Source of the DNA: Aspidiotus rigidus
Taxonomy: Eukaryota > Arthropoda > Insecta > Hemiptera > Diaspididae
Direction of reading: 5' to 3'
Length of the DNA: 64,000 nucleotides
Assembly: GCA_035079385.1 (NCBI GenBank)
Contig: JAVHKY010000054.1
Span: forward strand, 10,455,501 to 10,519,500
Numbering within the stretch: the stretch's first letter is position 1; every line of letters starts with the position of its first letter. Made by a program: the position numbers and the translations under genes. Below the pieces are notes generated by a model, which saw only the letters and a program-made list of their open reading frames with translations, was not told where the DNA came from and searched no databases. This document shows positions 14,866 to 64,000 of the stretch, one piece after another.

Positions 14866-17256
14866 TTGAGAACGCTTCTGCGGCGTATTTACAGTTCCTT
14901 TTTCTGAAATTTCGGAAGCAACGCGCTTCGTTTTCCTCTCATATTTGGTTTCTTCGTCGGTGTTTAGTGTTGCATTTGAGACCCAAGTTCGTTAAATTCC
15001 GGTTTTATTCCGATTGTAAGGTTACGACTGAGAAACTGGAAAATTATATGAGGGAGAAGTGGATCAGAACAGAGTTGCGAAGATGGTATGGTAAATTTAA
15101 TATCACGACCAGATTAAACCTTATGGTCCATTCGAGACTCTCCGGCATGCTCCTCCCCCTCGAGTTTGATTACTTCATGCGGGACGTCAATGAAAAGTGT
15201 CGGAAGTTTGAGGCGATGTTGAGGGAGAGGAAAAATAAGAAGCCCTAATGACGGTTAATGAGGAGGTGGTTGAGGAGGGGGTGAGTGATGGTGTTGTCGT
15301 TCATAAATTCCATCCCCCCCCTCATAAATAATAGTCAGGAAGTGTTCAATAGTGACGAAACATCCCTCCATGAGAAAGGTTTGAAGTTCAGTATGCCTCC
15401 CCTCAAGAATGATGAAACCTTGGCGAATGTTGTTGCGGATCTTGCGGTTAAGATTGGTCCTGGTTTTAATACCCAGAAAGTTTGTGCCGAATTAGTCCGT
15501 AAAAACCCCCTCCCTCGCATGAGTAATAAATTGGGAGGAGTGATTCAAGGTTTGAAGAGGGAGATTTGATCGTCACTAAGGCTGACAAGGGCAACGCTGT
15601 TGTAGTGATGGAGAGATCGGCCTATTCTTCTAAGGTCCATGAAGTCCTACAACAGTGTGGTGCTAAAGAGAGTGAGGATTTCAGCTTTCCCAAGCACGTC
15701 AGAGAAGTTAGGTGTGTCATCAACAGGAGTGAGGCTATTATCAAAACCCCTGCTTTGAAAAAAGCCCTCCTTGTTCCTAACCCCACACCCCGCCTCTTGT
15801 ACGGGCTGCCTAAAGTGCATAAGAATAATACCCCGATGAGACCCGTTGTTTCTTTCGTCTCCTCTCCTACCTACCTCCTTGCAAAATTCCTTGACCGTTG
15901 GTTCAAAAATCGTATTGATTTTGAATCCCCTCATTCGGTCTTGAATTCGGCCTCTTTAACTGACGTCCTCAAGGATGTAAGCCTTCCCCCGGGAACGACC
16001 ATCTGCTCGTTTGATGTTGTTGGTTTGTTCCCGAATATTCCTAAGGCTGCTACTATCCAGCGTATGGGTGAGCTACTCGTCAAAGCCAACGTTTCTCATA
16101 ATGAGCTTCACGAATTCTTCGATCTTCTTAATACTTGCTGGTCCCCTAACTACTGCAAATTTGAAGGGAAATTTTTCGAGTTCCCTGACGAAGTCCACCA
16201 CTAGGCTCTCTCCTATCCGAAATCTTCATGTCTAAGTTTGAACTTGACCTCTTTTCCTCGAACCACGTGTTACTTAATCATATTCATTATTGGCACAGGT
16301 ACGTTGATGACGTTCTATGTACCTGGACTGGTCACCCAGATCTCCTTGGTGAGTTTCTGAGGTATCTCAATTCCTGGTACCCTTCCATCAAATTTACGTT
16401 GGAAATAGGGGTATTTTCCATTAACTTTTTGGATTTATCGATCTCTATAATAGACGGTATCCATAAGTTTGGAATTTACAGGAAAGATACTACGACCGAT
16501 GTTTTAGTCCACCGTGGTTCGTTCGGTCCTGTTGCTCACAAGATGGCTGCTTTTCATAGCCTAGTTCACAGACTGACTCGTATTCCTTTGAGTCAGTCTG
16601 CCTTGAAGAAAGAGTTAATCACAATAAAACACCTGGCCAGAGTGAATGGGGTCAATGTCGATGTTGACGTGATGGTTCGGAGGAAAGTTACAAGGGGCCT
16701 CCTGGATTCCACCACCTCCCTCCCCCGAGACACGATCCGTGATCGCCGTTTGCGTTGGATCAGTCTCCCTTTCTTGGGGAAGTTCTCCCAGCAATTGGGT
16801 CGGGCCCTTCGCCCGTTTGGCTTCAGACCCGCGTTTTACAACCCTACCACAGTCAAGAGGTTGTTTGTGAGACTGAAGGACCCCATACCTGTTGATGAGA
16901 GGAGTGGTGTGTATAAGTTGGAGTGTGAGGATTGTGGAGGCTTTTATATTGGCGAGACCAGCCGCCAAATGAAAGTTCGAATAGCTGAGCATATGAAGTC
17001 TTGGAAGAAGGGACACTTGGGGGAGTCAACTTTCGCCGATCACTTAATAAACAGTGGCCACAGCTTCCGCGAGGGATCCGAAAAGCTCCTCCATAAGGAG
17101 AATTCCTACCGAAAGCGTATCGCCCTCGAGAATATAGAGATAATTCGTCATCTCAACACTGACGGTATCACTGTACTCAATTCGTACATTCCGGAAGATG
17201 GCTTGATCGAACTGGTTTATGACTCACACCGTGATTTCTCGTTTGGACGATCTTAA
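14844..17256 (+). pseudogene. PLE-B reverse transcriptase with GIY-YIG endonuclease, frameshifted
   Basis: The reading frame is collinear with family A but broken. The first frame (14844-15248) ends at a stop after KNKKP. A frameshift lies at a C8 run (about 15315-15322). Another is near 15560 before the DLIVTKADKGNAVVV block. A gap near 16195-16205 removes residues equivalent to GIPIGSP of family A. RT landmarks are LLYGLPKVHK with PMRPVVSFVSSPTYLLAKFLD, ICSFDVVGLFPNIP with the first catalytic Asp, and HRYVDDVLCTW with the catalytic YVDD. The endonuclease part has SGVYKLECEDCGGFYIGETS, RIAEH and FADHLINSGHSF. The endonuclease frame (16228-17256) is uninterrupted. PLEs use GIY-YIG cleavage to prime reverse transcription at the target. 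Confidence 0.9.
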
Positions 17257-32373: not shown

Positions 32374-33073
32374 ACGGGACGGGTTCAAATGGGCGCCGAG
32401 TTCATGTAGGCGCCAAAGGGTTTTTTGCTACCAAATATTTTCGCCTTCTCCTTATATCATATGCAATAGTTTGAGCGAGTTTTCGTAATATTTGGAGAAA
32501 GATTTCGGGCTGTTCACTCTTTGTATAAAACGGCCAGGACATACAAGAAAATGTTCACCGCTATTAGTGAATTAAGCGGCAATACTTTGAACCCGGACTC
32601 ATTTTCGGGTGATTTCAAGTTAGGTCTAATCAAATCATTTCAGGAAGTGTTCCCCTCGACAGCGGTTGGTGGTTGTTTGTTTCATTTCGCACAGAATGTG
32701 CAGAAACATGTAGGTGAGGTAGGCTTAAAGGTTCAGTACCAGACCGATCCGCGGATTAATCTTGAGGTACTTATGATTATTGTGCTGGCTTTTGTTCGTC
32801 CGGCTGATGTAGAACGGTATTTTGAAGAACTGCAAGAATACGCCCACGATAGTCTAGACGACATGTACGATTATATCGAAGGTTACTACATAGGTCGCCG
32901 AGTACGAAGAGAACGGAAACAGCCACGCTTCCCTCAAGCATGGGGGAACGTCTACAGTCGAACGTTACAGAGTGGACCGCGGACTAATAATCACGCTGAG
33001 GCAGGGCACCGGCGACTCCAATGCGCCCAATTGAGCTTTTTGGGGATTTCGCGCCCAAATGAACGGGACCCTG
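32374..33073 (+). mobile_element. Short Mutator-like (MULE) derivative with terminal inverted repeats
   Basis: The left end GGGACGGGTTCAAATGGGCGC (32375-32395) is inverted at the right end (33051-33071, GCGCCCAAATGAACGGGACCC), with a few mismatches. The GAGTAC hexamer flanks both sides and may be part of a target duplication. The 700-bp interior is mostly a piece of MULE transposase. It is therefore an internally deleted, non-autonomous MULE that kept its ends and part of its catalytic domain. Confidence 0.65.
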
Positions 33074-33114
33074 GAGTACAAATAGAAGATATTTTCCTAT
33101 CAACGCTAGGATAA
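32521..33114 (+). pseudogene. MULE transposase C-terminal half, truncated
   Basis: The frame gives SGDFKLGLIKSFQEVFPSTA, then GGCLFHFAQNVQKHV and GLKVQYQTDPRINLEVLMII. These match the second half of the MULE catalytic domain: DFExA at the second acidic residue, FPxxxxxGCxFHfxQ, then the GLxxxY block. RTNNHAEAGHRR near residues 160-170 fits the RTNNxxExxH motif carrying the final Glu. The first catalytic Asp and the N-terminal zinc finger are missing. After about codon 176 the frame runs through the terminal inverted repeat, so the last twenty residues are not transposase. The frame is uninterrupted, which suggests recent truncation or simple luck. Confidence 0.82.
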
Positions 33115-37458: not shown

Positions 37459-38766
37459 CTATTCAATGCCCGCTATGGGCTTACGCTTTAGTCGTTGGGT
37501 AGATGGTTGTTCCAGTAGCTGAAGTGCCTCTATGTTTGGGTGGCCGTGGACTCGTTTGATGTACCTTGTCGTGGCTTTTGATGCGATTTGCTGGATATTT
37601 TCCAGTGCCAAGTCCTCGTGCAACTGCTGGTTTGTAATATACCACGGTGCTCCTGTGATTTTACGGAGTGCGTTGTTTTGGAATCGCTGTAAAATTTCTA
37701 TGTTGCTACTTGCTGTCGAGCCCCATAATGGTATTCCATACGTCCAAATGGGGCGAAGGATCATGACATATAGTAGCCTTTTATTCCAGAGTGATAGCCG
37801 AATCTTAGCTCTGAGCATCCAGAATCGGAGTTCGAGTTGCTCTCTTTTCTTGATTATGTGCGCTTTCCAATTTAGCTTACAGTCCAAGTGTAAGCCTAAA
37901 TATCAGGTGCAGTCAGCCCGCTGTACAGGTTCATTATTTATATACGTGGGATCATATCCATGATTTCTAAGGGCAAAGTCAATACGGACAGTCTTGGATG
38001 CGTTAGTTTGAATTTTCCACCTGGTGGTTCATTCCTCGACTTTGTTGACAGCTCTCTGCAAATTGGTGACTGCAGTAGAGTAGTCTTCATGCATAGCAAG
38101 TATAGCGGTGTCGTCTGCAAATGTGGCTAGTGTGGAATCATCTTGCTCTGGAATGTCTGCAGTGTATAGTAGATACAGCAGGGGACCAAGAACACTGCCC
38201 TGTGGTACACCCGCTGCTATTGGCTTGTCAGAAGAGTCAGCTTCTCCATAGTGAACATAGAATCTTCTGTCGCTAAGGTAAGATGATAAAATTTGCACAT
38301 TACAAGTTGGAAAGTGTTTGCTGATTTTGTGGAGAAGTCCGGGGATCCAGACTCGGTCGAAGGCTTGACTAACATCCAGAAATACGGATGGGCAGAACTT
38401 TTCTTCTTCTAATGCCTTTCTAATTGCTGTTCCAACACGATGAACCTGTTCAATGGTACAGTGCCTGTTTCTGAATCCAAACTGGTGGTCTGGGATTAGG
38501 TTCTTGTTTATGACTATTCCCAGTAAACGCCTCATGTAAAGCTTCTCAAATAGTTTAGAAAGAACTGAAAGCAGGGATATTGGACGATACGAGCTGGGTA
38601 TTTCTGGCGGCTTACCTTCTTTAGGAATCATGATTATTCTCGCTAACTTCCACTGTTTTAAGTAGGTCAACATTATCAGGCCTTTGCGTGGCAGCTTTTG
38701 TAAAATACGTGCCGACATTTGATCGTACCCAGGTGCTTTCTTAGGGTTAAGTTTCTTTTTAATCAT
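37459..38766 (-). pseudogene. LINE reverse transcriptase domain
   Basis: From 38766: KLNPKKAPGYDQMSARILQK, YRPISLLSVLSKLFEKLYMR, FGFRNRHCTIEQVHRV, SVFLDVSQAFDRVW with the first catalytic Asp, GVPQGSVLGPLLYLLYTADI, and TFADDTAIL with the catalytic FADD box. A stop follows NKVEE at 38029. The frame is re-entered with the thumb-like region LNWKAHIIKKREQLELRFW, then LRPIWTYGIPLWG, and ends at 37459. The order and wording are those of Jockey-clade ORF2 proteins, which copy element RNA at nicked target DNA. There is no RNase H after the RT, as expected for Jockey and unlike the LINE at 5940-6918. Confidence 0.9.
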
Positions 38767-38921
38767 AGTTTTGATTTCTCTTGGAAAAAATAAGTCAACT
38801 ACCTGCTCCTCTGCTAGGCAGAGGTCAGGAGAGATATCGGTGACAATTTCATTAGGTTGGAATCTTTGCTCAAGGTGCTCTGCATAGACTTCAGCTTTCT
38901 CTCTATCCGTTCTCGCCGAAG

Positions 38922-39123
38922 TATTGTTTGGATGACAGAATACTCAAAGAGTAGAGTAAACGATAATTACTAATTACAAAGACCACAGATATAAAGGAGA
39001 AGATGCGAGATCTTTCGGTTAACAAACCATCATCGGGCAAAGTCTTTTACTCTACTCTTTGAGTATTCTGTCATTATGTCGAGCCGTAACGTTTCTGACC
39101 GTGTCAATTCTATTGTTTGGATG
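38922..39123. mobile_element. 176-bp insertion with hammerhead-like motif and 13-bp TSD
   Basis: TATTGTTTGGATG flanks the insert (38922-38934 and 39111-39123). The insert (38935-39110) begins with a 26-bp arm that is perfectly inverted at 39046-39071, then carries a further 39 bp present on that side only. Between the arms the minus strand reads CCGATGATGGTTTGTTAACC followed by GAAAGATC: a hammerhead-like core with one change (CTGATGA to CCGATGA), a GGTT/AACC stem and GAAA. It has no ORF. The LINE reading frame is continuous across the empty site. Its layout mirrors the PLE insertions, so I class it as a candidate non-autonomous PLE-type element. Confidence 0.75.
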
Positions 39124-51557: not shown

Positions 51558-52565
51558 CTACCAAAGAGGACATGACTGAACTAGCGAGTCATCACAATGT
51601 GAATCATACTCGTAAACTAATTCAATCAAACCCTCATCAGGTATGTACCTGTTAAGCACATTTAGGTTATCGTTATTCAGATGGAGAATAATTTCGATGT
51701 GTTCTAGCGCGGTACGTTTGAAAGCCGAGGACTCTCTGTGGAGGAGGGACTCAGATCCCTCTATGAAACCATGGCCAGTGGTAATAAGATGGTCCGCAAA
51801 TACCGAATCACCCAATTTCTTCTTTTCCCACGCCTTCCTATGCTCATCTATTCTAATTTTGAGCTGACGTCCAGTCTCGCCTATATAGACTCCATTACAA
51901 TCATTACACTCAATTTTGTAAACCCCGCTTCTTTCGACCAGTGGGATGAGGTCCTTTAACTTAACGAACAAGCTTTTTACAGTGTTCAGATTGTAAAACA
52001 CTGGCCGAAACCCAAATGGGCGGAGGACACGATCCAGTTGGGAAGAAAATTTCCCCAAAAACGGAAGCCTAATCCAACGTTTCCTACTATCTGACGCTGG
52101 ATTACGGGGGAGGGAGGTAGTGGGATCAAGGCATTTCCGAGTCAATTTCCTATGGACCATCAAGTCAATATCCAAGCTGATCTCGTTCACTCTGGCCAAG
52201 TGCTTTATAGTCAGAAGCTCCTGTTGAAAAGCGAGCTGAACCAATGGAATACTCGTCAACCGGTGGATATAACTATTGAAACCGGCATATTTGTGAGCAA
52301 CAGGGCAGAAAGATCTGCCGTAGACAGTAATATCGGTCGAGGTATCTTTTCTATATATGGCGAATTCGTGGGCACCTTGTCTATTAGAGAAAGTAAGGTC
52401 CAAAAAATTTATAGATGAACCGCCTACTTCCAACGTGAATTTGATGGATGGGTATAAACTGTTAAGATACCTGAGAAACCCCAAAAGGAGATCCCGTTGA
52501 CCGGTCCACAAACACAAAACATCGTCGACGTACCTGTGCCAATAATATATATGACCCAAAAACAC
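51558..52565 (-). pseudogene. PLE-A RT 3' part with intact GIY-YIG endonuclease
   Basis: An uninterrupted frame of 335 codons starts within the RT. HIYYWHRYVDDVLCLWTGQ carries the catalytic YVDD. Then come FLDLTFSNRQGAHEFAIYRK and the linker. The endonuclease follows, with RSGVYKIECNDCNGVYIGETG (GVY and YIG intact, Cx2C pair), KIRIDEHRKAWEKKKLG, FADHLITTGHGF and EHIEIILHLN. It is the best-preserved PLE endonuclease in the window. The upstream RT blocks are missing because of the head-to-head truncation, so it cannot be a working gene alone. Confidence 0.9.
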
Positions 52566-52575
52566 CTGACCAGGG

Positions 52576-53226
52576 AAATGTCGGTCTTTCGAGGCTACAT
52601 TAAAACGTAAGAAAAATAAGAAGCTTACCTCCCTCCTAAATTTGAATGCCTCCGCTGTCCAGGAAGTGAGTATTGACGTCAGCGTTATCCAAAAGTTTCA
52701 ACCGCGGGTTATAAATTATAGTAATGTTGATTTTGAGAGTGACGAGTTGTATCTCTTGGAGAAGGGGTTAAAATTCGGGTTACCCCCTCTTAATAATGCT
52801 AACACTTTGGCCAATGTTGTTGCGGACCTCGAAATAAAAATTTGGCCTGGGGTTAGTACTCAGAAAGCGTGTGCCGCCTTTGTCCGCCATACCCCCTTCC
52901 CTCGTATAAATGATCTGGCTTTTGAGGTGGTTAAGAGGATCAAGAGGAAGGTCAGGGAGGAGGGCTTAACCATAACTAAGGCTGATAAAGGGAATGCCAT
53001 CGTCGTTATGGATAAGTCCTCTTACGTCTCCAAGGTCTATGACGTTCTCGACCAGTGTGGCGCCAAGGAAAATACGGATTTCAATTTTCCAAATCACGTC
53101 AAAGAAGTTAGACGTGTTATAAACAATTGTGAATTTATTATCAAGACCCCTAAGCTTAAAAGAATGCTTCTTGAGCCCAATCCAGTGCCGCCCCTCTTGT
53201 ACGGGCTACCTAAGGTTCATAAGAGG
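52576..53226 (+). pseudogene. PLE-A N-terminal and early RT region, cut by gypsy LTR
   Basis: It is collinear with 14210-14777 and then 17413-17503 of the first locus: LEKGLKFGLPPLNNANTLAN, ITKADKGNAIVVMDKSSYVS, FIIKTPKLKRMLLEPNPVPP and LLYGLPKVHKR. It spans the point where family B sits in the other locus, giving an unoccupied reference for that insertion. The frame is open to 53226. Homology then stops abruptly at TG, the first bases of the gypsy LTR. Confidence 0.88.
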
Positions 53227-54772
53227 TGCGGTATCTTTTTTCGAGACGTCTTCTCAAATTTTAGTGAAATTAATATCGTAGAAAAGAAAGATCGGAAAAC
53301 AAGACAGAAAGAAATTTGGTCCAGGGATGCCACGATGTTTTTATAGGGAAACACCGAAACCTGTCGCTACTAATTTGAGGAAGAGCGCAGTTTTTATTTA
53401 AATTTTAAGAAAAGAGACCCCGCCCCCCAATATTAGACGGCGATCTTTTCCGAGTCGGATTTTAGTTGAAGTACAGCGAACATATCCGACCGACGCTTGC
53501 GTTTGTTGAGCTTAAAAAAAAAGAAATTCAGAAATCGACGGTAAACATGTGTATTAGATGATCAAAAAAAACAAACAAAAAATGTCACAGAAATAAAACA
53601 AAAAAAGAAAAAATTGAAAAAACACTGGGAACTAGCAAAAAAAAAAAAAACAATAAATAAATAAATTATAATATAATCGGAATGTGAAAGAGATCAGGGA
53701 CTGAGTGACCTGGCCAACAATTTTTTTTTTTTTAAACAATCATTTTTAAACATTACTTTTTTACAAAAGCCCCCCCCCCTACTTTTTGGGCACAGAGACA
53801 CATCGTTTAAATTAAGAGGAAAACAGTGGAGGAAAAGTCATTGCGCGAATCGAATCAAAATATAATGTATAACTATGGGAGAAATTTAGCCAAAAAAAAA
53901 CAAAACAAAAGAAAGAGAGTGTCAAATTGGAAGAAGAGAAAAAAAAAATAAAAAAAATTGAATTTCGAAAAAGAAGAGGGGACATAAAAAGGTGGAATAC
54001 TCGAGGGGGATCGCTAGCCTCTCACGTGTGCGTCAGATCCCTGAAGGAAATTCTCCTTGACATAGTATATTCCCCTCAGGGACGTGAGCCTCTACGGGTG
54101 CCCCGCTGACCTTACCCCGAGCATCCAAAAAAAAAAAACTAGACGCGGAATACCTAGGGGGACAACTATCCTATTCGTCGGACTCGCTTCCTGAACCTAG
54201 GTACCCGGAGTGGACTATTCGGGGGGACAACTATCCAACAACTTAGGACTCGCCTCCGTGACCCGTCACCACCCATAAAAAGGAATAACTAAAACTAAAA
54301 TTCGCTACAATGAAGGGAATCGCAAGAACTCGACTTTAGCGCAGGGCCGTGGCACACCCACACTTTAAAGACGCGAATCTTGGATATAGGAACCGATATA
54401 GGGCCGAGGCTCTCCCATATCTTGGAAACGACAAGGGACTTTTATGGAGAAGACCGATATCTCTGTGCCCCTGACTTTCGAATAATTTAGAGAACTTAAC
54501 TTTAGAAGAAACCACCCTTCCCAGAAATATTAATTAAATCCAAATTACAAAACACAAAAAATTATTACGAACAAAAAAAATCCCGCCCCAAAGACACAAA
54601 CGCATAATAAAAAAAATTACAAACTTTCGGTTACGTACCGTGTTATGTAGACTCGTTGGTAGAGATGTGCACATTCCACCGCAGATCTGTGAATAATTTC
54701 CTGAAAAGTTCTAAAAGAAAAAGTACGTGCAAATATATGAATTTATAGTGTTGTGACCCCTGGCTAGTGACA
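53227..54772 (-). repeat. 3' LTR, 1546 bp
   Basis: The minus-strand U3 starts TGTCACTAGCCAGGGG at 54772, directly after the polypurine tract. The other end is ...GATACCGCA at 53227, where PLE homology breaks. The LTR thus has TG...CA ends. A TATAAAT-like element lies about 25 bp into U3 and an AATAAA signal at 53398-53393. A tandem pair of about 65 bp containing GGGGGACAACTATCC lies at 54157-54270. The partner LTR is outside the window, so identity cannot be measured. Confidence 0.82.
53393..53398 (-). promoter_or_regulatory. AATAAA polyadenylation signal in LTR
   Basis: TTTATT on the plus strand, about 165 bp before the LTR end. It is a plausible end-of-R signal, inferred from position only. 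Confidence 0.4.
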
Positions 54773-54795
54773 CCCCCCCCCCATTTTTCTCTTTT
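54773..54795 (-). other. Polypurine tract
   Basis: The minus strand reads AAAAGAGAAAAAT followed by G10, then TG of the LTR. It is 23 nt with a single pyrimidine, in the exact place required for plus-strand priming. Confidence 0.85.
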
Positions 54796-56832
54796 GCTAA
54801 CGAGATTACTACTGTCTTACACGGATAACTAATCAGACTTTCATGAGTGAAATTTCGAAGAGGAAAGAGGAAAATGAAATTTGCAACGACAAAAAAAAAT
54901 AAAAATGTGTGGTATTGAACTCTAATCTGCATGAGTGCTCGACGAACAAAAATAAGAAATAAATAAAAATAATACGAACAAGATATAAAAAAAAATAAAA
55001 TGAAACGGTAAGTAAAAAAATTGAGAAAAAGATTAAATTAGGAGATGACATGACGATTTTTTGAAGTTGACTGGTTTGGAACCCTGGTGGCAGATGGAGA
55101 CGAACTGATGGTTGACTGGTGGACAGCATCGCGAAAAGGTGGAAGTGTTCGCCGAAAAAGTGCGCATTCCTTGGCCGGATAAAACACATGACCCGCGCGT
55201 GATGGAAAATTTTAACACGTGGACATGACGGTCGAGAGAGATGGGGCCCACTAATGGGGCTTAGGCGGCCATCAGGCCAGCGTTACACATAGCACCAAAC
55301 CAATTAACAATTTGAGGTAACAATGCAATACGAGCACCGAGTAACGTGTGGGATCACACACCCGAATTTAAATTCTTTTTTAATAATAAAAAAAAACTCG
55401 AGTTTTTCGAAACTTTCGAATTATCGGCGAGGTGGGTTCGGTAGCCGACGCCTTTTTCGAACAACGACGCGCAATAGAGCGAATGTTTCAATTTCAAGAT
55501 GCGAACTAGCGCGAGTGCTCTTGAATAAGATAAGATTTAAACTTGGAAATAATGTGATTAGATCTTAGAAGAATTCGGCGCACGAAGTCGACATCGATCC
55601 GGTAGCATAGATTCGAACATCAGTGATTTCGCGCCGCGTTCCACATAGCCGCCTTAAAATCTTTTAGAAGTCTGACCCGCCGAAACTTCCCCCGACTTTC
55701 TCATTTCCGAAAGACTCCAGCGAATCCAAAAACTGGAATCTTACGTAATTGACCGCCTACTCGTTCTTACCCTTCCAATTGGTCCAGAGAGCCGTGATGT
55801 CAACCGTCTCTTAGTACCCTCGAGGATATGTCGAGATGGACGGCTCGACGACACCGCACAAGTAGTGAACTGTTCATCTCCCCGAGAACCCCGACTAATC
55901 CTATGATTTACGAGGGCTTGCATCGCCTCCGTCGACATTAACTAAGATCGGCTAACACACGTGCAAAGTCAGGACACGCTGCCCATCAAGAGGACCCCCA
56001 GAGTCAGGATGAGCTTGCGCGTATTGACACTGCACCCTCTAACCTATAAAAGAGAAAGAACGAGAGAAACAAAGAAAGAGCTGGGATCGAAACTACAAAT
56101 TTCCGTGTCTGCAGCCTTTTTTTTACGACTTACATCCGCGGATGACACTGCAGACAAAGACCGAAACATTAAAATTCAAAACTCTTCCTTTCGGTCAATC
56201 GAATTTTTTGAAATAACATCTGCGTCTTCCAAAATCTCCGTCTAAATATGCCAGATGTAGGCTCGCATCACCCCAATGTCTAATTCCTAAAGAAACTGAA
56301 ACCTCCCGCACAAATTATTTTATTGCTTTTACGCAGTTTCTCCGAGACATCAGAGTATAGAACAAAGGAGTGTTGCAAGCTCGGCCGAATAAGACACAGG
56401 AAGACCGTCGGATGAAAATAGAGGGAGAGAGAATGGAAGAAGACGAGCGAGACAGCGAGAAAGACCACCAGCGGCCACGCAACGCGCTCGCCACCCGATG
56501 AAATATCTTCGAATCTATGCTTAACCGAAGAAGCGTCAATCTATCTGTGTTTTGAATTTACATATTTTTTGTGACACTACAAGATGCCCCTAGAAATTTT
56601 GAGTGTTAACTTGGGATTTCTACCCGGTAGTGTCCTAGTACTGCTGCCACCTCTTTGGCCTTCATCGTCCACCAACCGTCTTGGCAGATTCCAACAGCCA
56701 TCACCCGACCATCCAATTTGTAATGTGTTGATTTTTGTTCCACCAATAACGCTAGGGACATACTTGTCTATGCATAGTTTAAAGATTACAATTATTACTA
56801 CCAATTACTATTGTACTTAAAAACAACGTCAC
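54796..56832 (-). other. 2-kb region between Pol and LTR, no recognised ORF
   Basis: Only short frames occur here. One hydrophobic 118-codon frame (55189-54833) is driven by T-rich sequence and lacks envelope features such as a signal peptide plus cleavage site. Several plus-strand frames (55323-55568, 55961-56245) are also unrecognised. The length is unusual for a gypsy element without env. It may hold a spliced or decayed third gene. Confidence 0.5.
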
Positions 56833-59800
56833 TCACTCCACTCCTGTTTGGATTATGGTTCGGGGGCGTGACTCCCCTGCATACTTTACAACTGCCAAGC
56901 AAATGTCGTTGCTCTTACTGTCTTGATGGGCCATCGCATCCTTAGCTTTATTGTCAGCCTGTTTTATCAAAATGAGTTGGCGCACGTTCGCCATTATGTT
57001 TTTTTGTAGGTTCGCTGTGTCCCTCAGGAGATAAGCATTCGACCCGATCCGTTTGACCACCAAGTACTCGCCTTCGTACTTTTTATAGAACTTTTTGGTC
57101 AGCCCGTAATAGGCCTGAGAGATGTGGTGACTTTTCAGTGCAACCACATCCCCCTCTCGGAATCGGGTCAACTTCTTGCCAGAGATCTGCTCCTGGTGAC
57201 GACTTCTTCGAAATTCGATGTCCTTAAACGCTTTGACGTATTTGGTAATCGCCTCGTTCTCGTTAAGCTTGGATGCGTTTACCTCCGTCCACAGTCGATA
57301 CTCCCGCAATATCTCCTGGGCCCCATAGTCCGCCTCGAGGTTCCCAAAGTCTAGCGTGTGACCGTGGACAAACGTCAGGCGTACGTTCTCCCTACCCATC
57401 ATCTGTATTGCTTCTCTCAACCTGGAAAGCCACGCAAAATTCTCGTAACTGGGGAGTTTCGGATTGTTGTCACTCAGCAGACCCTCGTTGACTAAATCTG
57501 CTACATACTGCGAATCAGTATGCACTGCCACCCGAGGTACCTTGTGAGCGTGCGCGATCTCTATGGCCCTTATCACCGACAGTATCTCCGCCTGGTTGTT
57601 GGTGAGGGCCGGGTGCGTTACTCTTGCTTCATTAGCTCTATGGTCTTGGGCTATCCAGACCGAGATTGACGAGAGCCGATCTTTAGATGACCCTACCGAT
57701 GCTCCGTCACAAAATGCATGGGCCCAACCTTCCTCATCGTAGGTAAACTTGAGAGGTGTGGGTCTCTGGCCTTTCTTTATCACATAATCGCTCACATCTT
57801 CCTGTAACTTATTCACTCTTTCCTGTATCAGTAGTGCGGGATTGGGCGGCACTATTCGGACATTTGCCACGGGGATCGGGTCAAAATCATCAATTCCCAG
57901 GATTTGATTCGGGGAGTACTTATGGGATTTGGGAATGGCGTTAAGAACCTTTTGGATGGTTTTAAGCTCGCGATACCACAGTGTATGGTCACGCGCTGGG
58001 ACTGTGCTATCATTGATCTTCACTCGCAACTTCTCTCCGAGGTCCCGCATAGCTCTTTCCACTGGGTTCGCGGAGGGATTATGGGCTGTTGTAAACCGAG
58101 GTTTTATGTTTCTAGCGTAGAGGCACTTAACCCACTTATCGGATCGAAATTGGCGAGCATTATCGGACAAAACCGTCTCCACCGGGATATTGAGCGCGTC
58201 GTAATCCTCAAGAACTTTCCCCAAAGCCCGCACGAAACTATCCGTTGTCATCGATCGAATCGGCTGGTATGACACGTAACCTGACAATCTGTCCAGAGCC
58301 ACAAACACGGCTGTAATACCCCCTCTTCGGAGCGGCAAGGGACCAAAAATATCGACCGATAACACCTCACCGGGATAGGACGCTTCCACTCGTGAACGCT
58401 CGGGGTTGATCGCTTGATTAGATACTTTATTATGTTTGCAGGTTACGCAACGACCCACCAATTGTCCTACTTTCCGTTTTAAATCATTGACATGAAATTG
58501 GCGTTTAATCAACAGCTCAGTTTTTACCACACCCGGGTGACAATAGAACTCATGAAAGAATTGTATCAGGTCATCGACTGCATGTTCCGGAACGACCAAG
58601 AGTTTTGCCCCGCTCTTAGTTGTTTTGAATAGCCGCCCGTCTATGAGAATGAACTTGCAATCAACTTTTCGCTCAATTTTTTCGATTATTTTCTTGCAGT
58701 ACGAGTCCGATGCCTGATGCGACTTAATATTCTCAAATAGTTCAAAAAGCATTTCAGACGGCTCCTCGCTCGCCTTGACCACGTGCCCCTTGAATACCTG
58801 ACACATTTCGCATACTTCGGTTTCCTTGACCTCAGTCTCCACTAGTGTCTGCGATCCCTCATCGTCAACTTCCACAATTTCACACAGACCGGCGACCGGA
58901 TCCATTGGTATAATACAAGCGACCAGTCCATAAGTTTCTAAGATTTTAAACGGGCGCTCAAAATTCCCCTCTTCATATCCCTGAGACCTGATGTTGAAGG
59001 AATTAATATAGACATACCATTTCGCACATAGACTATTCACCCCAATAATTTCGCGACAACGCTTGATGAGTAAAATTTTACTTTTGCTCACAATAACTTG
59101 GTACCCTACCAATAAATCTTTGTATCTTTTCAAAACGTGATAGAGAGCGTATAGATTCTTCTCGTCAGTCGTTTTTCGCGCGATATTGAACTCTAATCGG
59201 TGGTTAAGCATTGTAATAATCCCAGGGGTCCCTTCTTCACTGCACTGCAAGATACAACCAGTGATACAGTCTTGCTCTACTCTTACAACCACATAGAAAG
59301 GCCGGGAATAACAAGGTTGCTGGAGTTTAAAATCACGAAAGAACGCTTCTTTCAACGTGTAGTACGCTTCCTCGTGCCTCTTATCGGTCTTAATGGGTGG
59401 TGGGAAAGATAGCAAATCAATCAAGGGGGAGACTAAGATCGCGTAGTTCGGAATGAATCTGGAGTACCAGTTAACAAACCCTAACAATTGTTGTACAGCT
59501 CTCTTATGCGGGATGGTGAATTTCGAGTTCTTGAAATAAAGTCCCTCGAACTTTTTAAAGAACGCTCCCTTCTCTAAATTTTTTGTGATTATACCCGGTG
59601 CTAGCCAGTGTCCTACGTACTTCACCCTCGAACGAAAAAGCACGGTCTTGTCAATAGATAAGGTGAGCCCAGCTTCGAAAATGCTCTTAATGGAGCGGAC
59701 TAACAGATCACGATGCGTTTTAAAGTTGGGTGTTTGAATTTTGACATCGTCGATGTATGCCTTAACGTGAATAGACTTTAAACTATCCGCTAACACCTTG

Positions 59801-61761
59801 CGAATGATACGATTGAATACCGACCCGCTAACTTTCGTGCCGAATGGCAACCGTTTGTATTGATAAGTTTGATTGTCGATCTGAATACCAAGGAACTGAC
59901 TTGAGATCTCATCAAGCATGATTTGTAAAAACCCCAGCCTTAAGTCGAAGACCGAAAGGATATCGCCTACGTTCTCCTCGAACAGTATGTCCTCGATTCG
60001 AGGTGGGTCATGGTGCTCTTCACACAGTATCTCATTTAATGCAGACGCGTCAACACAGATCCGAATAGAACCGTCGCCCTTCGGGGCGATTACCACTGGG
60101 TGGATGTACTGGGTATTTGACTCGATGATAATTCCCTGTTCTAACATTTTTTCGATCTCCGCTCGCACCGCCTCGTGGTACGCGCGTGGGTAACCGTATC
60201 GCTTAGCCCTCCATCGTTCTGTTATTTTGAACGTTAAACTTACTGGTCCGCCGTTGTAACAACCCAGTTCCCTTCTGAAGACCATTATGTAGGGCGATAC
60301 CTCTTCTAGCGCTTCCTGAGCCTCTGAGGCACTAACAACCCCGTCCACGACTGCTGTATAAAGTTTGTTCTTTAATTGCCCCAGAAGTACCGATCTCTCG
60401 TCACTCTCACTTGCTCCCGTATGAAAAATGCACATGCTATTGAACTCTTCTTCGGTGTCCTTGGAAAAAAGCTCGGGTATCTTCTCTCGAGACGTATGTA
60501 CTGTAAAAACCGACATGCGCTTGGTCTCCTGAATAATGGGAAGAGTGACTTTTCCTTCATTTATATGTACCAACGACATCGTGAGAGCGCCATAGTCGAC
60601 AACGGCCTTGTAATTTAATAAGAAGTTTCCCCCTAAGAGTATCTGTTCAGTCAGATCTTTAACTATTAAAGCGGCCATGAATAGTGAAACACCCGCTACC
60701 TCTAACTTAATGACGGCATATTCCTCTAACGAGTAAGCCGCACCATGGGCCAAAAGTAATTTTACCCGACGGGACAGCTTTCTAAAAACAACGGATCCTG
60801 GGCGTAGCAACTTGGCTCTCATGATCCACTCATAATCTACAACGCAAACTGTCGCCCCGGTGTCTACCAGAAGAATCACTCTTTTCTCTCCCAGCCGACC
60901 CTCCACTCGGAAGAGCAGACCCGTCGCGCTGGCACCGATCAAGTCATCGACCTCTAACCCTGCACTCCAATTTGATACGCAGACACTTTTGGCCGCTGAC
61001 GCGTCATCACTCCTATCGCTCTTCTTAGACTCTGCCTCCAATGCATTGATCCTTCCTCCGTTTTTCAACTGATTCACAGCTCCCGCTAGTTCATCGAGTA
61101 CTTTAGAAATAGCTTCCTTTTGAAAACCCGTGTGACTAGCTCCTGTTTGGGAGTAGGTCGCTCCGTACAAGTCCACGTTAACCCTGGTAGGGAATCCCCC
61201 CTTGTCCACTAATAAAATGTCACCTTCCGGATCTTTACGCGAAAAGAAAACCTTATCAATATAGATAAGACTTGAAAAAGCGCTAAATTGTTTTGCCACT
61301 TGCTCGTAAATACGTCGTATCTCTTCGTAACATTTCCACTGCTCTAGCTTATTGTTCCCGGGCCACGGAGGTGGCACAATCAGCCCTAAATGCTGCACCC
61401 CACATTTTTGAAGATGTTCGACTATATCCACAAGAGTTTTGTGAAATTTAGACGGATTAAATTTGTTTGAATCGACTTGGTCACAATACCCGACTGATAA
61501 TAATACATAAGGATGAAACGCTTTCGTTGCCCCCACGCTCACTCGGAGGTAGTCGGCCGTTATAAACTCGTAAACCAAGAAATACCTTTTGACCCGACGT
61601 AGGGGTTGATTCAGCATTTTAACGTTGTAAAATTTTAGAATTTGGTAGAAAAGGGTGTCGCCGATTAACTGGCACCACCGGAAAAGCTTAAACTGTGGAG
61701 CCGGTAATCGCTGGTTATCGGATGCACTCCCTTCCACGTTCGAAGAGAGTGCGGTCGCTAG
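56833..61761 (-). CDS. pol: Pol polyprotein with two RNase H domains and an SGNH-like domain
   Basis: Counting from the first codon of the GTG-initiated frame (61737), the domains are as follows. SGNH-like: residues 20-215 (GDT 26-28, VGYCD 82-86, His202). Aspartic protease: DTGA 292-295 and ILLGG 366-370. RT: about 510-710, with Asp598 and YIDD 661-664. Ty3-type RNase H: about 810-920, lacking the first Asp and the TDH Asp. Integrase zinc finger: about 1062-1100. Integrase core: Asp1129, Asp1192 and Glu1227, with 35-residue spacing. Second RNase H: Asp1344, Glu1384, Asp1408, His1460 and Asp1470. SH3-like integrase tail: 1526-1573. The frame is open upstream through the slippery site, so Pol is made by -1 frameshifting from Gag, not from the GTG. 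No stop or frameshift occurs in over 1640 codons. Confidence 0.93.
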   Translation of the reverse strand, partial: LATALSSNVEGSASDNQRLPAPQFKLFRWCQLIGDTLFYQILKFYNVKMLNQPLRRVKRYFLVYEFITADYLRVSVGATKAFHPYVLLSVGYCDQVDSNKFNPSKFHKTLVDIVEHLQKCGVQHLGLIVPPPWPGNNKLEQWKCYEEIRRIYEQVAKQFSAFSSLIYIDKVFFSRKDPEGDILLVDKGGFPTRVNVDLYGATYSQTGASHTGFQKEAISKVLDELAGAVNQLKNGGRINALEAESKKSDRSDDASAAKSVCVSNWSAGLEVDDLIGASATGLLFRVEGRLGEKRVILLVDTGATVCVVDYEWIMRAKLLRPGSVVFRKLSRRVKLLLAHGAAYSLEEYAVIKLEVAGVSLFMAALIVKDLTEQILLGGNFLLNYKAVVDYGALTMSLVHINEGKVTLPIIQETKRMSVFTVHTSREKIPELFSKDTEEEFNSMCIFHTGASESDERSVLLGQLKNKLYTAVVDGVVSASEAQEALEEVSPYIMVFRRELGCYNGGPVSLTFKITERWRAKRYGYPRAYHEAVRAEIEKMLEQGIIIESNTQYIHPVVIAPKGDGSIRICVDASALNEILCEEHHDPPRIEDILFEENVGDILSVFDLRLGFLQIMLDEISSQFLGIQIDNQTYQYKRLPFGTKVSGSVFNRIIRKVLADSLKSIHVKAYIDDVKIQTPNFKTHRDLLVRSIKSIFEAGLTLSIDKTVLFRSRVKYVGHWLAPGIITKNLEKGAFFKKFEGLYFKNSKFTIPHKRAVQQLLGFVNWYSRFIPNYAILVSPLIDLLSFPPPIKTDKRHEEAYYTLKEAFFRDFKLQQPCYSRPFYVVVRVEQDCITGCILQCSEEGTPGIITMLNHRLEFNIARKTTDEKNLYALYHVLKRYKDLLVGYQVIVSKSKILLIKRCREIIGVNSLCAKWYVYINSFNIRSQGYEEGNFERPFKILETYGLVACIIPMDPVAGLCEIVEVDDEGSQTLVETEVKETEVCEMCQVFKGHVVKASEEPSEMLFELFENIKSHQASDSYCKKIIEKIERKVDCKFILIDGRLFKTTKSGAKLLVVPEHAVDDLIQFFHEFYCHPGVVKTELLIKRQFHVNDLKRKVGQLVGRCVTCKHNKVSNQAINPERSRVEASYPGEVLSVDIFGPLPLRRGGITAVFVALDRLSGYVSYQPIRSMTTDSFVRALGKVLEDYDALNIPVETVLSDNARQFRSDKWVKCLYARNIKPRFTTAHNPSANPVERAMRDLGEKLRVKINDSTVPARDHTLWYRELKTIQKVLNAIPKSHKYSPNQILGIDDFDPIPVANVRIVPPNPALLIQERVNKLQEDVSDYVIKKGQRPTPLKFTYDEEGWAHAFCDGASVGSSKDRLSSISVWIAQDHRANEARVTHPALTNNQAEILSVIRAIEIAHAHKVPRVAVHTDSQYVADLVNEGLLSDNNPKLPSYENFAWLSRLREAIQMMGRENVRLTFVHGHTLDFGNLEADYGAQEILREYRLWTEVNASKLNENEAITKYVKAFKDIEFRRSRHQEQISGKKLTRFREGDVVALKSHHISQAYYGLTKKFYKKYEGEYLVVKRIGSNAYLLRDTANLQKNIMANVRQLILIKQADNKAKDAMAHQDSKSNDICLAVVKYAGESRPRTIIQTGVE

Positions 61762-61767
61762 TTTCCC
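61724..61767 (-). promoter_or_regulatory. -1 ribosomal frameshift signal between Gag and Pol
   Basis: The minus strand has GGGAAAC (61767-61761) read as G-GGA-AAC in the Gag frame, directly followed by the Gag stop TAG. Slipping one base back puts ribosomes on GGG-AAA-CTA, the Pol frame. An 8-nt spacer (61760-61753) precedes an 11-bp stem (61752-61742 with 61734-61724; one G-T pair) closing a 7-nt loop. The heptamer, spacer and stem match the standard X-XXY-YYZ arrangement. Confidence 0.92.
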
Positions 61768-63161
61768 TGATATAGCCTCGAAATGGAATTGATATTTCCT
61801 GCTTCCGCACCACCGTGGGCCTGATTTTCATAGGTACTCGGCTCGTATAGCTCGGACACCTCCTCAATTTCGGTTAGATTCGCTCTCTGGAATTGAGTTC
61901 CCCGATTAGGCTCGTTAGTCCCCCGATTCGCTCTCTCGAAAGGCTGCTGTCGCGCCGGCGGTTTACTCATGTCACTATAGGGAGCTTGTCCTGGAACTCC
62001 TTCTCGAAACCTAAAATCTCGCGGATTAACAATCCGGGTCACCCTTGCCTTAAACTCGTTATAATTGCTGTTATCATGGCTTTTCAACACATCATGCTTT
62101 GGGATTGGCATTTTATTGATCAATTTATTAATGATATCATTTTGAGATAGAGGGACATGAGAGAGGGAAGATAATCTGTTATACCACGTGTCTAACTGCT
62201 GTACAAACGTGGCGACGTTTTCATATTTGAATCGGGTTTCATCAAACTCGCGCATGATAGCTTCCTGCGTCGCCCGGTTCCAAAATTGTTCCAGAAATTT
62301 ATGTTGGTATTGCTCAAGATTATGATATAACATGTTCAACTCTGCATCCCATGGCGGTTCATTCACTCGTACTAACCGCTTGAAAAGACGAACCTTTTCC
62401 CCATCGTTCAACCCCAACCCCATAATGGCTTGATTGAAATTTTGGATGAATCGGTTTGGCGCTATAGACCCATCTCCCATGAACGGTGGACAAATCGGAT
62501 AGGGCGAGTTTAACCCCAGTGATATCTCAGCGTCTCGTAAACGTTCACTGGAGTGAATACTACCTTCCGACCATCCGTTAATTCCTCTTTCTCTTCTGTC
62601 AGGCGTCACACGCTCCTGCCTGCCCCCGTAACTTCCGGGTGAAACTCTATGCGCAGGCTGATAGGCGGATCGATTAGACTGGGGAAACTGTCGAGTATTA
62701 GGGCGAGGTTGATTGTGGGAGAGGTGATCTTGAGCGGGTAAACGTGATGATCGCGCCGGACTACTGTGTTCGGGTACGCTCGGTACCTCGGGAAGAATAG
62801 CAGAGGGCGCTGGATGTGAGGCCCTGACACTAGCTTGAGCCGTGAGTGCAGTAAGAGCCTGTGCAATATTCCCTAATTGGGTATTGAGGTTAGCTTGGGT
62901 CTCAAGTTGCGCCTCTAAGAGTTGCCCCAACAGATTGCGTACTTCATTTCCGCGCTCACCCGGGCCATTTCCCTCCACCGACTGATCAATCTGATCGTTA
63001 TTGGGAAGCTCTCCTTCCCCGCCATTCTCGACACCTTGCTCATTCGGAACGTTATCTTGCTCTTCCCCATTCTGTTCTTCGAGCTGATCGATGCGGTCTA
63101 AATTATCCTGGTTCGAAAACTCTCCGGCTGCTTTTTTGCTATTTTTGGTATTTCGCGTCAT
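61758..63161 (-). CDS. gag: Gag polyprotein
   Basis: This 467-codon frame starts at ATG 63161-63159. The frame extends four codons further, but without another ATG. The first 115 residues are acidic and polar, with Gln/Asn/Glu-rich repeats and a probable coiled coil (LLGQLLEAQLETQANLNTQL). A Pro/Ser/Arg-rich linker follows. Residues from about 215 to 400 form a capsid-type domain: PPFMGDGSIAPNRFIQNFNQ, LVRVNEPPWDAELNMLYHNL, FLEQFWNRATQEAIMREFDE and VATFVQQLDTWYNRLSSLSH. No CCHC zinc knuckle is visible; the C-terminus is Arg/Gln/Asn-rich instead. The stop lies inside the frameshift signal. Gag packages element RNA into cytoplasmic particles. Confidence 0.88.
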   Translation of the reverse strand: MTRNTKNSKKAAGEFSNQDNLDRIDQLEEQNGEEQDNVPNEQGVENGGEGELPNNDQIDQSVEGNGPGERGNEVRNLLGQLLEAQLETQANLNTQLGNIAQALTALTAQASVRASHPAPSAILPEVPSVPEHSSPARSSRLPAQDHLSHNQPRPNTRQFPQSNRSAYQPAHRVSPGSYGGRQERVTPDRRERGINGWSEGSIHSSERLRDAEISLGLNSPYPICPPFMGDGSIAPNRFIQNFNQAIMGLGLNDGEKVRLFKRLVRVNEPPWDAELNMLYHNLEQYQHKFLEQFWNRATQEAIMREFDETRFKYENVATFVQQLDTWYNRLSSLSHVPLSQNDIINKLINKMPIPKHDVLKSHDNSNYNEFKARVTRIVNPRDFRFREGVPGQAPYSDMSKPPARQQPFERANRGTNEPNRGTQFQRANLTEIEEVSELYEPSTYENQAHGGAEAGNINSISRLYQGN

Positions 63162-63463
63162 TATTATTCTCAAGAACTGATAAGCTAACGAAAACTAAAA
63201 CTACGAAAGAAAATATGCTCTTTGCACGATAAAAGAAAATTTCAATAAAAGTAAATCACATTAAAATAAGTGGGTCACCATCTCTCATCCCACGTCACGC
63301 TGTCTTTCTTTAAAATCACTGAACTCCGCTGCCTCGATATGTATTTATTCATTTGTCATCTCAATCTTTTAGAAAATGTAATTAAATAATAATGCTAACG
63401 CTATAAAGTAATAATAATAACTAAAAAAAAACAAATCCACTCAGACCACTCCAGATTGCTGGA
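63162..63463 (-). other. AT-rich leader between upstream ORF and Gag
   Basis: About 300 bp, no ORF and no obvious primer-binding site or LTR terminus. It contains CACGTGGGATGAGAGATGG-like and poly-pyrimidine segments. Its first 40 bases belong to the direct repeat shared with the end of Pol. Confidence 0.6.
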
Positions 63464-63535
63464 TTATGGCTCGGGGGCGTGACTCCCCTCCTCACTACTT
63501 GACGATTGAAACGGGACAAGATAGACTGCTACACT
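63425..63535 (-). repeat. Direct repeat shared with the 3' end of Pol (56817-56910)
   Basis: The core is 29 bp with one mismatch (63461-63489 and 56850-56878, GGATTATGGYTCGGGGGCGTG...). Weaker similarity extends to GGAGTGG-STGAGTG-TTGTTTTT on one side and CGACATT-GCAGT on the other, with a gap of about 30 nt. It covers the last codons of the upstream ORF and of Pol. Confidence 0.8.
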
Positions 63536-64000
63536 AATGTCGTAATGCTGCCCGCCGCAGACATTCTCTTCACCTATTCCTGTCGGGCTATGCTCGCGAC
63601 TCTCAAACTTAATTCCTGGCGACTCGCGCCCCTCGCATGCAAAGAAATCGTCATAGTCGTCCTCATTCTCATTCTCATTCTCGAGCTCGTTCCCAGAAAG
63701 AAACCCGGGCGCGTCTGTCTGATCTCCTTCGAGAGGGTCAGTATCATCCTCGTGCTGAAGTGGCTCTATCTCTACCCTCTCGACTGCAGCATTCCTCAAC
63801 CGACATTGCATTCCAAGATAGGCGGACATAGCGACTAACACCTCCGGAGTCGGGGGAGAGTGGATGTATGTGAGTTTACTGACCACATTGGTTTGCATCC
63901 TCACTTCGTCGTTGTTATATCGCAATACCTCCACTCGACCGACCCTTTCGTGCCCCTCGACTATTTCCGCCATCTCGTTCAACATGTCGATGTCGGATCT
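63464..64000 (-). CDS. ORF upstream of Gag, partial, unknown function
   Basis: The frame is open from the right edge to a stop at 63464, giving at least 178 codons. The first visible Met is at 63985, but the true start may lie outside. The N-terminal visible part is mixed alpha/beta-like (VEVLRYNNDEVRMQTNVVSK). The middle is strongly acidic (ELENENENEDDYDDFFACEG). I recognise no domain. It lies on the same strand, just upstream of Gag. An extra ORF in this place is known from plant Ogre/Tat-type giant gypsy elements, but no homology is claimed. The alternative is that it is the end of an adjacent tandem element. Confidence 0.6.
   Translation of the reverse strand, partial: RSDIDMLNEMAEIVEGHERVGRVEVLRYNNDEVRMQTNVVSKLTYIHSPPTPEVLVAMSAYLGMQCRLRNAAVERVEIEPLQHEDDTDPLEGDQTDAPGFLSGNELENENENEDDYDDFFACEGRESPGIKFESREHSPTGIGEENVCGGQHYDISVAVYLVPFQSSSSEEGSHAPEP

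Follow-up and report, generated by a model that had tools for sequence, protein, structure and literature searches.

In the portions of the literature available to us, Tat, Chronos, Archon, Odin and the retroviruses, all of which carry a further RNase H, are described as having lost catalytic residues from the native one (PMC10508981, PMC5348765, PMC9040795). In retroviruses, lokiretroviruses and Odin, the native domain was degraded to a tether and a new RNase H was acquired (PMC9040795); this new domain, which belongs to a Fungi/Metazoa-like cluster (PMC10508981), lies after the tether and before the integrase. The oomycete elements Chronos and Archon have a retrovirus-like dual RNase H in which the native domain has lost its catalytic residues and the extra one is of archaeal type, and Chronos also carries a chromodomain (PMC5348765). 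In the plant Tat elements (aRH, structures #1 to #5), an extra RNase H is accompanied by a degenerate native one at any position of the extra one (PMC10508981). None of the five structures listed in the part of PMC10508981 available to us has the extra RNase H behind the integrase, and for the Tat subclade TatIII an extra domain after the integrase has been reported (PMC6317226), so that a place behind the integrase is not new as such. The extra domain of Tat is described as being of archaeal type. The dual RNase H of Tat was reportedly also the subject of a 2015 paper.

The locus analysed here, from Aspidiotus rigidus, resembles all of these systems in the decay of its native RNase H and differs from them in where the second one sits. 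In the window (the whole analysed stretch of 64,000 nucleotides), a Ty3/gypsy Pol carries a native domain without catalytic residues and an extra domain with the complete set; unlike in Tat, the latter lies between the integrase core and the integrase C-terminal domain, and the nearest named host is an insect. It is not placed directly behind the native domain and before the integrase, and the retrovirus-like structure #1 is thus not the one found here. In the literature searched, partly available as extracts and with Repbase and subscription papers outside it, we found no dual-RNase H Ty3/gypsy element of arthropods, nor any element whose extra RNase H separates the integrase core from the C-terminal domain.

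All features of the element lie on the minus strand. The Pol open frame extends from stop to stop over 56833..61827 (1,634 aa from a GTG at 61737), and its order is SGNH-like domain, protease, reverse transcriptase (RT), degenerate Ty3 RNase H, zinc domain, integrase core, RNase H and integrase C-terminal domain. The aspartic protease (60619..60906, Pol residues 278-373) matches PF13975 below the cut-off and shows DTGA, and the RT (59605..60084, residues 552-711, RVT_1) shows YIDD. They are followed by the original Ty3-type RNase H (gRNH; 59089..59382, residues 786-883, RT_RNaseH_2), which is tether-like with D, E and D replaced, by the Pfam-matched H2C2 zinc-binding domain of the integrase (58423..58593, residues 1049-1105), and by the integrase catalytic core (57883..58374), where Pfam rve covers residues 1122-1221, the domain reaches to about 1285 by eye, and D1129, D1192 and E1227 are present. 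The integrase C-terminal domain, with a GPY/F-like G-E-Y, follows downstream of the new RNase H at 56962..57171 (residues 1523-1592); here SH3_Tf2-1 matches residues 1529-1580 below the Pfam cut-off (E 7.4e-5), and the Pol alignment shows, by eye, KKFYKKYEGEYLVV..GSNAYLLR, which we take to resemble the GPY/F region of Ty3 integrases. In the part of PMC12440569 available to us, the GPY/F motif is mentioned by name. A weak structure model of the piece from core to C-terminal domain (pLDDT 61.5, pTM 0.38) has beta strands at the C-terminal domain; the best 50 Foldseek rows obtained with it are nearly all integrases at low TM and of little use for the RNase H. With the core ending at about 1285 and the C-terminal domain starting at about 1523, the RNase H occupies the linker that joins the two.

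The second RNase H itself occupies 57298..57735 (residues 1335-1480). The reverse complement of this segment translates without a stop into the peptide given in the preliminary description, with the motifs CDGAS, NNQAEIL, HTDSQYVADL and VHGHTLDFGNLEAD and with the catalytic set D1344, E1384, D1408, H1460 and D1470, whose columns are all invariant in an alignment with three other Pols, so that peptide, frame and residues were reproduced. The match to Pfam RNase_H (PF00075) at residues 1341-1475 (E = 5e-14, 53.1-56.9 bits, cut-off 25.8) is not a chance one. RVT_3 also matches the domain, which fits neither of Pfam's gRNH models. The claim of a second RNase H beside a first therefore stands as far as its complete DEDHD is concerned and is not supported as far as two working enzymes are implied, since the active site of the first RNase H is lost. 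Both this loss and the location of the second domain in the integrase had been missed.

Upstream of Pol, the gag open frame (61758..63194) has no Pfam match (P0003) and is named by its place and by a by-eye likeness to the N-terminal part of P0009, one of the related Pols introduced below. Directly before its stop, a GGGAAAC heptamer (61761..61767), presumably a −1 slippery-type sequence, lies by eye in phase for a −1 shift, and Pol is in the −1 frame. Between the 5′ LTR and gag, an acidic ORF of 245 aa (63467..64201) passes the window edge at 64000; a Pfam search with its last 173 aa (P0004) matched no family. The 3′ LTR of 3,355 bp (53227..56581) has TG...CA ends and a GAGG target duplication, and an identical 5′ LTR lies beyond the window at 65501-68855. 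The order of protease, RT, RNase H and integrase, the TG...CA LTRs and the short target duplication identify the element as a Ty3/gypsy LTR retrotransposon. A 37-nt repeat (89%) occurs at 56849-56885, close to where Pol ends, and at 63460-63496, close to the end of the ORF that precedes gag; it contains GGGGAGTCACGCCCC, which could form a hairpin. At the 5′ LTR end (65461-65500, minus), we see by eye no obvious tRNA primer site beginning there, and a candidate primer site, TGGTGGGGACC, lies 17 bases inside. Elsewhere in the window, ORFs at 16189-17253 (+) and 51561-52697 (−) have weak GIY-YIG matches below the cut-off and are perhaps Penelope-like, RVT_1 is matched at 38032-38943 (−), and a weak MULE match lies at 32470-33111 (+).

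The N-terminal domain of Pol (61093..61716) has an SGNH fold with replaced catalytic residues, and its top structural matches are the OSK domain of Drosophila Oskar. By eye, the Ser block reads GDT, GDT, GDT, GDL and GDA in the five Pols holding it, and GxxDQ lacks the Asn. In a sequence search with the SGNH-like domain, no Oskar chain was among the four matches at E ≤ 10, so the link to Oskar is one of fold. An OSK-like fold in a retroelement could bear on the origin of oskar, the likeness being a fold-only one. A GDSL/SGNH domain in an LTR retrotransposon is also described, in the part of the source available to us, for the bdelloid Vesta elements, where it forms a separate ORF3 with intact catalytic residues, whereas here it is the N-terminus of Pol and these residues are replaced (PMC5408684).

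We then considered how widely the arrangement is shared. Three Pols carry the window domain at 48-62% identity, and a search with the RT part adds P0008, P0009 (from the scale insect Parthenolecanium corni) and P0010. Of these six, P0010 stops before the integrase, the C-terminal domain of P0008 is broken, and the other four show the full order; the new RNase H is present in five of them, all from other data sets. The host genome (441 Mb, 102 contigs) holds at least 71 matches to the domain at E ≤ 1e-3, among them 16 copies, the window's included, that are 99-100% identical over the 146-aa domain, have a frame of 1,664 aa and show no stop within the match; six further matches lie at 55-60% and seven at 49-50%, besides fragments and more distant ones. 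We refer to the host sets at 99-100%, 55-60% and 49-50%, together with their relatives, as clade A. Its DEDHD is complete in 10/10 new RNase H domains, the window's included, and the order of core, RNase H and C-terminal domain is kept in all nine Pols whose frame reaches that far (the ends of L011-L013 were read by eye, and P0008 and P0010 are excluded). The same domain order thus recurs in relatives, including the Parthenolecanium corni data, as the search of related genomes proposed in the preliminary description was meant to find out. That description had also raised an assembly chimera joining a LINE RNase H to this Pol. Nothing speaks for this or for a LINE fragment inserted into one Pol copy; such an origin is refuted by 16 near-identical copies at separate places and by the presence of the domain in five Pols of other data sets, and we regard it as practically out of the question. 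The arrangement is that of a lineage, not an accident. Scans of viral and of prokaryote contigs found no relative.

LTRs were examined at three places, namely in the window, on C47 and on C25. The window copy spans 53227 to 68855, and its LTRs differ at 0/3,355 positions (aligned pieces of 400, 2,374 and 581 bases), while the copy on C47 has an LTR difference of 1/3,355 and an ATGT target duplication. The window element thus looks to have been mobile recently, although gene conversion could be another cause of identical LTRs. On C25 (L021-L023), two element copies stand in tandem, 12,277 bp apart, and apparently share an LTR.

The decay of the original gRNH is common to the same lineage. Its first Asp and its Glu are lost in 11/11 clade-A Pols, the window's included, and the third Asp is lost in 10/11, P0009 having an Asp in that column. 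These counts combine seven rows of a 50-Pol alignment (first Asp lost in 7/7, Glu in 7/7, third Asp in 6/7) with L010-L013 from the same genome, where all three residues are missing. Among the 43 other rows of that alignment, one of which (P0028) is gapped, D, E and D are kept in 38/42. The four exceptions are P0046, which appears here because it is misaligned (its TDAS is visible in another alignment), and three beech Pols that list RVT_3 as well, as would be expected of Tat elements. Pfam still matches the window's tether to RT_RNaseH_2 (36.2 bits), and across the family this part retains 34-58% identity, so it is presumably preserved for structure. With the old RNase H decayed in 11/11 and the new one complete, the new domain looks like a replacement of the old one.

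What, then, was the source of the new domain? Against solved structures, a profile of six clade-A domains matches best the RNase H1 2qk9 (E 6.5e-11, 45.6 bits), followed by 3h08 (42.8 bits), RNase HI chains (about 18-28 bits) and retroviral domains (about 13-21 bits); we take 2qk9 to be human RNase H1, 3h08 to be from Chlorobium and the HI chains to be from E. coli. The same profile weakly matches the RVT_3 part of three beech Pols (E 1e-5 to 1e-4). A search with the domain alone against 5.8 billion proteins listed 54 candidates, none of which reached E ≤ 1e-3, so a close free-standing source did not turn up at this sensitivity. The host has cellular RNase H1-like genes of its own, in exons at two places (L045 on C3 and L046 on C13), and at L045 a second first-exon-like piece lies 1.8 kb downstream. 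Exons of both, together with five LINE-like domains of the same genome, were added to a richer domain tree. For the domain trees, two of the three beech domains were dropped, as were between three and five gRNH rows. There, the new domains and the cellular RNases H fall outside a group of gRNHs and tethers (UFBoot 100). In the richer tree (SH-aLRT/UFBoot, as read before rerooting), gRNH is separated from the rest at 99.6/100, the LINE-like domains group at 97.2/99, eukaryotic RNase H1 at 95.3/97, clade A at 100/84 and a second clade of the host genome, clade B (below), at 78.5/83; the two clades are not united, and neither of them is nested in RNase H1.

The AU tests rejected none of eight groupings. 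Clade A could be joined with RNase H1 (p-AU 0.602), with the whole gRNH group (0.536), with Tat (0.466), with clade B (0.448), with the LINE-like domains (0.171) or with 3h08 (0.143), clade B with RNase H1 (0.175), and both clades with RNase H1 (0.253). As to an archaeal-type origin like that of the Tat domain, the window domain fits PF00075 better than RVT_3 (56.9 vs 28.9 bits, the latter above its cut-off of 21.6), its His is present, and the Tat grouping stands at the 0.466 just given. The domain might also derive from the RNase H of a LINE (a non-LTR element) and not from cellular RNase H1: many RNase H matches of the host are LINE-like (about 45 bits, 126 aa, named by eye), such domains keep DEDHD in 5/5 aligned, and their grouping with clade A goes unrejected, but the best tree sets A, B, RNase H1, the bacterial 3h08 domain and Tat apart from gRNH and the LINE-like domains (91.4/69), and we consider this origin quite unlikely. 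Capture was to be doubted, according to the preliminary description, if the domain grouped with its own element's gRNH. In favour of an old duplication from the gRNH side, a union of clade A with its own tether goes formally unrejected in the set with tethers (p-AU 0.083), as does a place beside the whole gRNH group in the test given above. That own-tether tree is, however, 21 log units worse, a joint version that puts the new domains of A and B with the tethers of the two clades is rejected (p-AU 0.003), the gRNH and tether group is closed, no Pfam gRNH model matches, and the best phmmer match of the window domain among 44 other Pols has an E of 0.28; a duplicate thus seems very improbable. 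The proposed capture of a cellular-type enzyme is accordingly favoured by the PF00075 type, by RNase H1 as best solved match and by the position outside gRNH, and held back by the eight unrejected groupings and by a tree, as good as the best one, that inserts the two clades between gRNH and the cellular sequences (p-AU 0.556). From profiles and trees, we infer that the new domain is old and of PF00075 type, that it resembles RNase H1 in profile searches and that it falls outside the closed gRNH group. It appears too short to fix its nearest relative, and the trees are compatible with several positions of clade A.

Clade B (L014-L018) is a second multi-copy Ty3/gypsy clade in the host genome, with some frames reaching 2,520 aa; the more distant domain matches that were examined proved to be Pols too. 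In L014, L015 and L016, Pfam finds RT, RT_RNaseH_2 and integrase, with RNase_H coming last, at the C-terminus of Pol or close to it; L016 is split over two frames and L017 over three. An integrase C-terminal domain before the RNase H is seen by Pfam in L015 only (SH3 at 1292-1335, E 0.02, below the cut-off; RNase_H at 1523-1671) and by eye in L014 and L016. The clade resembles clade A in its SGNH-like N-terminus (by eye), its degenerate gRNH and its extra PF00075 RNase H, the DEDHD of which is complete in 9/9 domains (L014 and L018 being near-identical) and which, in a single domain run against solved structures, matches RNase H1 at E 1.2e-11. Unlike clade A, it has this RNase H after the integrase and keeps the Glu of the old gRNH (4/4), where the first Asp is lost in 4/4 and the third is absent in the 3/3 that reach it. 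The RT+gRNH tree joins the two clades with local support 0.964 and the RT-only tree at 35.6 SH-aLRT and 87 UFBoot (P0028 and P0046 were dropped from one set of these trees, ten more distant Pols from another), suggesting that a common origin of A and B is likely.

Taken together, we think it probable that the window holds a recently mobile Ty3/gypsy element in which the integrase-borne RNase H supplies the activity needed in reverse transcription and the old one is kept as a tether. The old gRNH would then serve as a structural connection, as described for retroviruses, and the integrase part, with the sole complete RNase H active site, would be where hybrid RNA is cut. An enzyme in this place must act either in the RT-integrase protein or in trans. 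RT and integrase are first made as a single polyprotein, and there are several retroelements in which they remain joined or bound. In cis, the RNase H might act within the unprocessed or partly processed RT-integrase protein; in trans, it might act from an integrase that is bound to RT inside the particle. This would physically couple the removal of RNA to the later integration complex. The model does not hinge on which source the domain came from.

Alternatively, the place in the integrase may be functionally meaningless. Across the family, RT, integrase core and new RNase H are conserved to a similar degree, with identities to the window of 47-63%, 50-71% and 41-62%, whereas the flanking linkers reach 22-47% and 26-45%, both being less conserved than the neighbouring domains except against P0008 with its broken C-terminal domain. 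Such poorly conserved linkers suggest that the element's protease may cut the domain free to work on the hybrids of reverse transcription or, at the target site, on R-loops of the host, and the clade-B domain, which a long linker attaches at or close to the end of Pol, would suit release as well. Nevertheless, the domain lies between core and C-terminal domain in 9/9 clade-A members showing it, and cutting both linkers would part the two; integrases generally need core and C-terminal domain joined. We therefore consider a freed enzyme unlikely, if the most serious of the alternatives, and retain the integrase-borne enzyme as the preferred reading. That an animal Ty3/gypsy lineage evolved the retroviral solution on its own, with a cellular RNase H in the integrase, so that an integrase-RNase H fusion carries out the removal of RNA, and with clade B, its enzyme behind the integrase, as a sister arrangement, is a broader proposition to which we would give an even chance.

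Replacement of the native RNase H is regarded, in the portions of the papers available to us, as one step in the emergence of retroviruses from retrotransposons (PMC9040795, PMC10508981). In the present element, the new enzyme does not lie beside the RT, and two features that usually occur together, a new RNase H by the RT and the decay of the old one, are thus separated. It makes testable whether an RNase H serves reverse transcription from within the integrase, and since the copies look recently active, such an experiment would be feasible.
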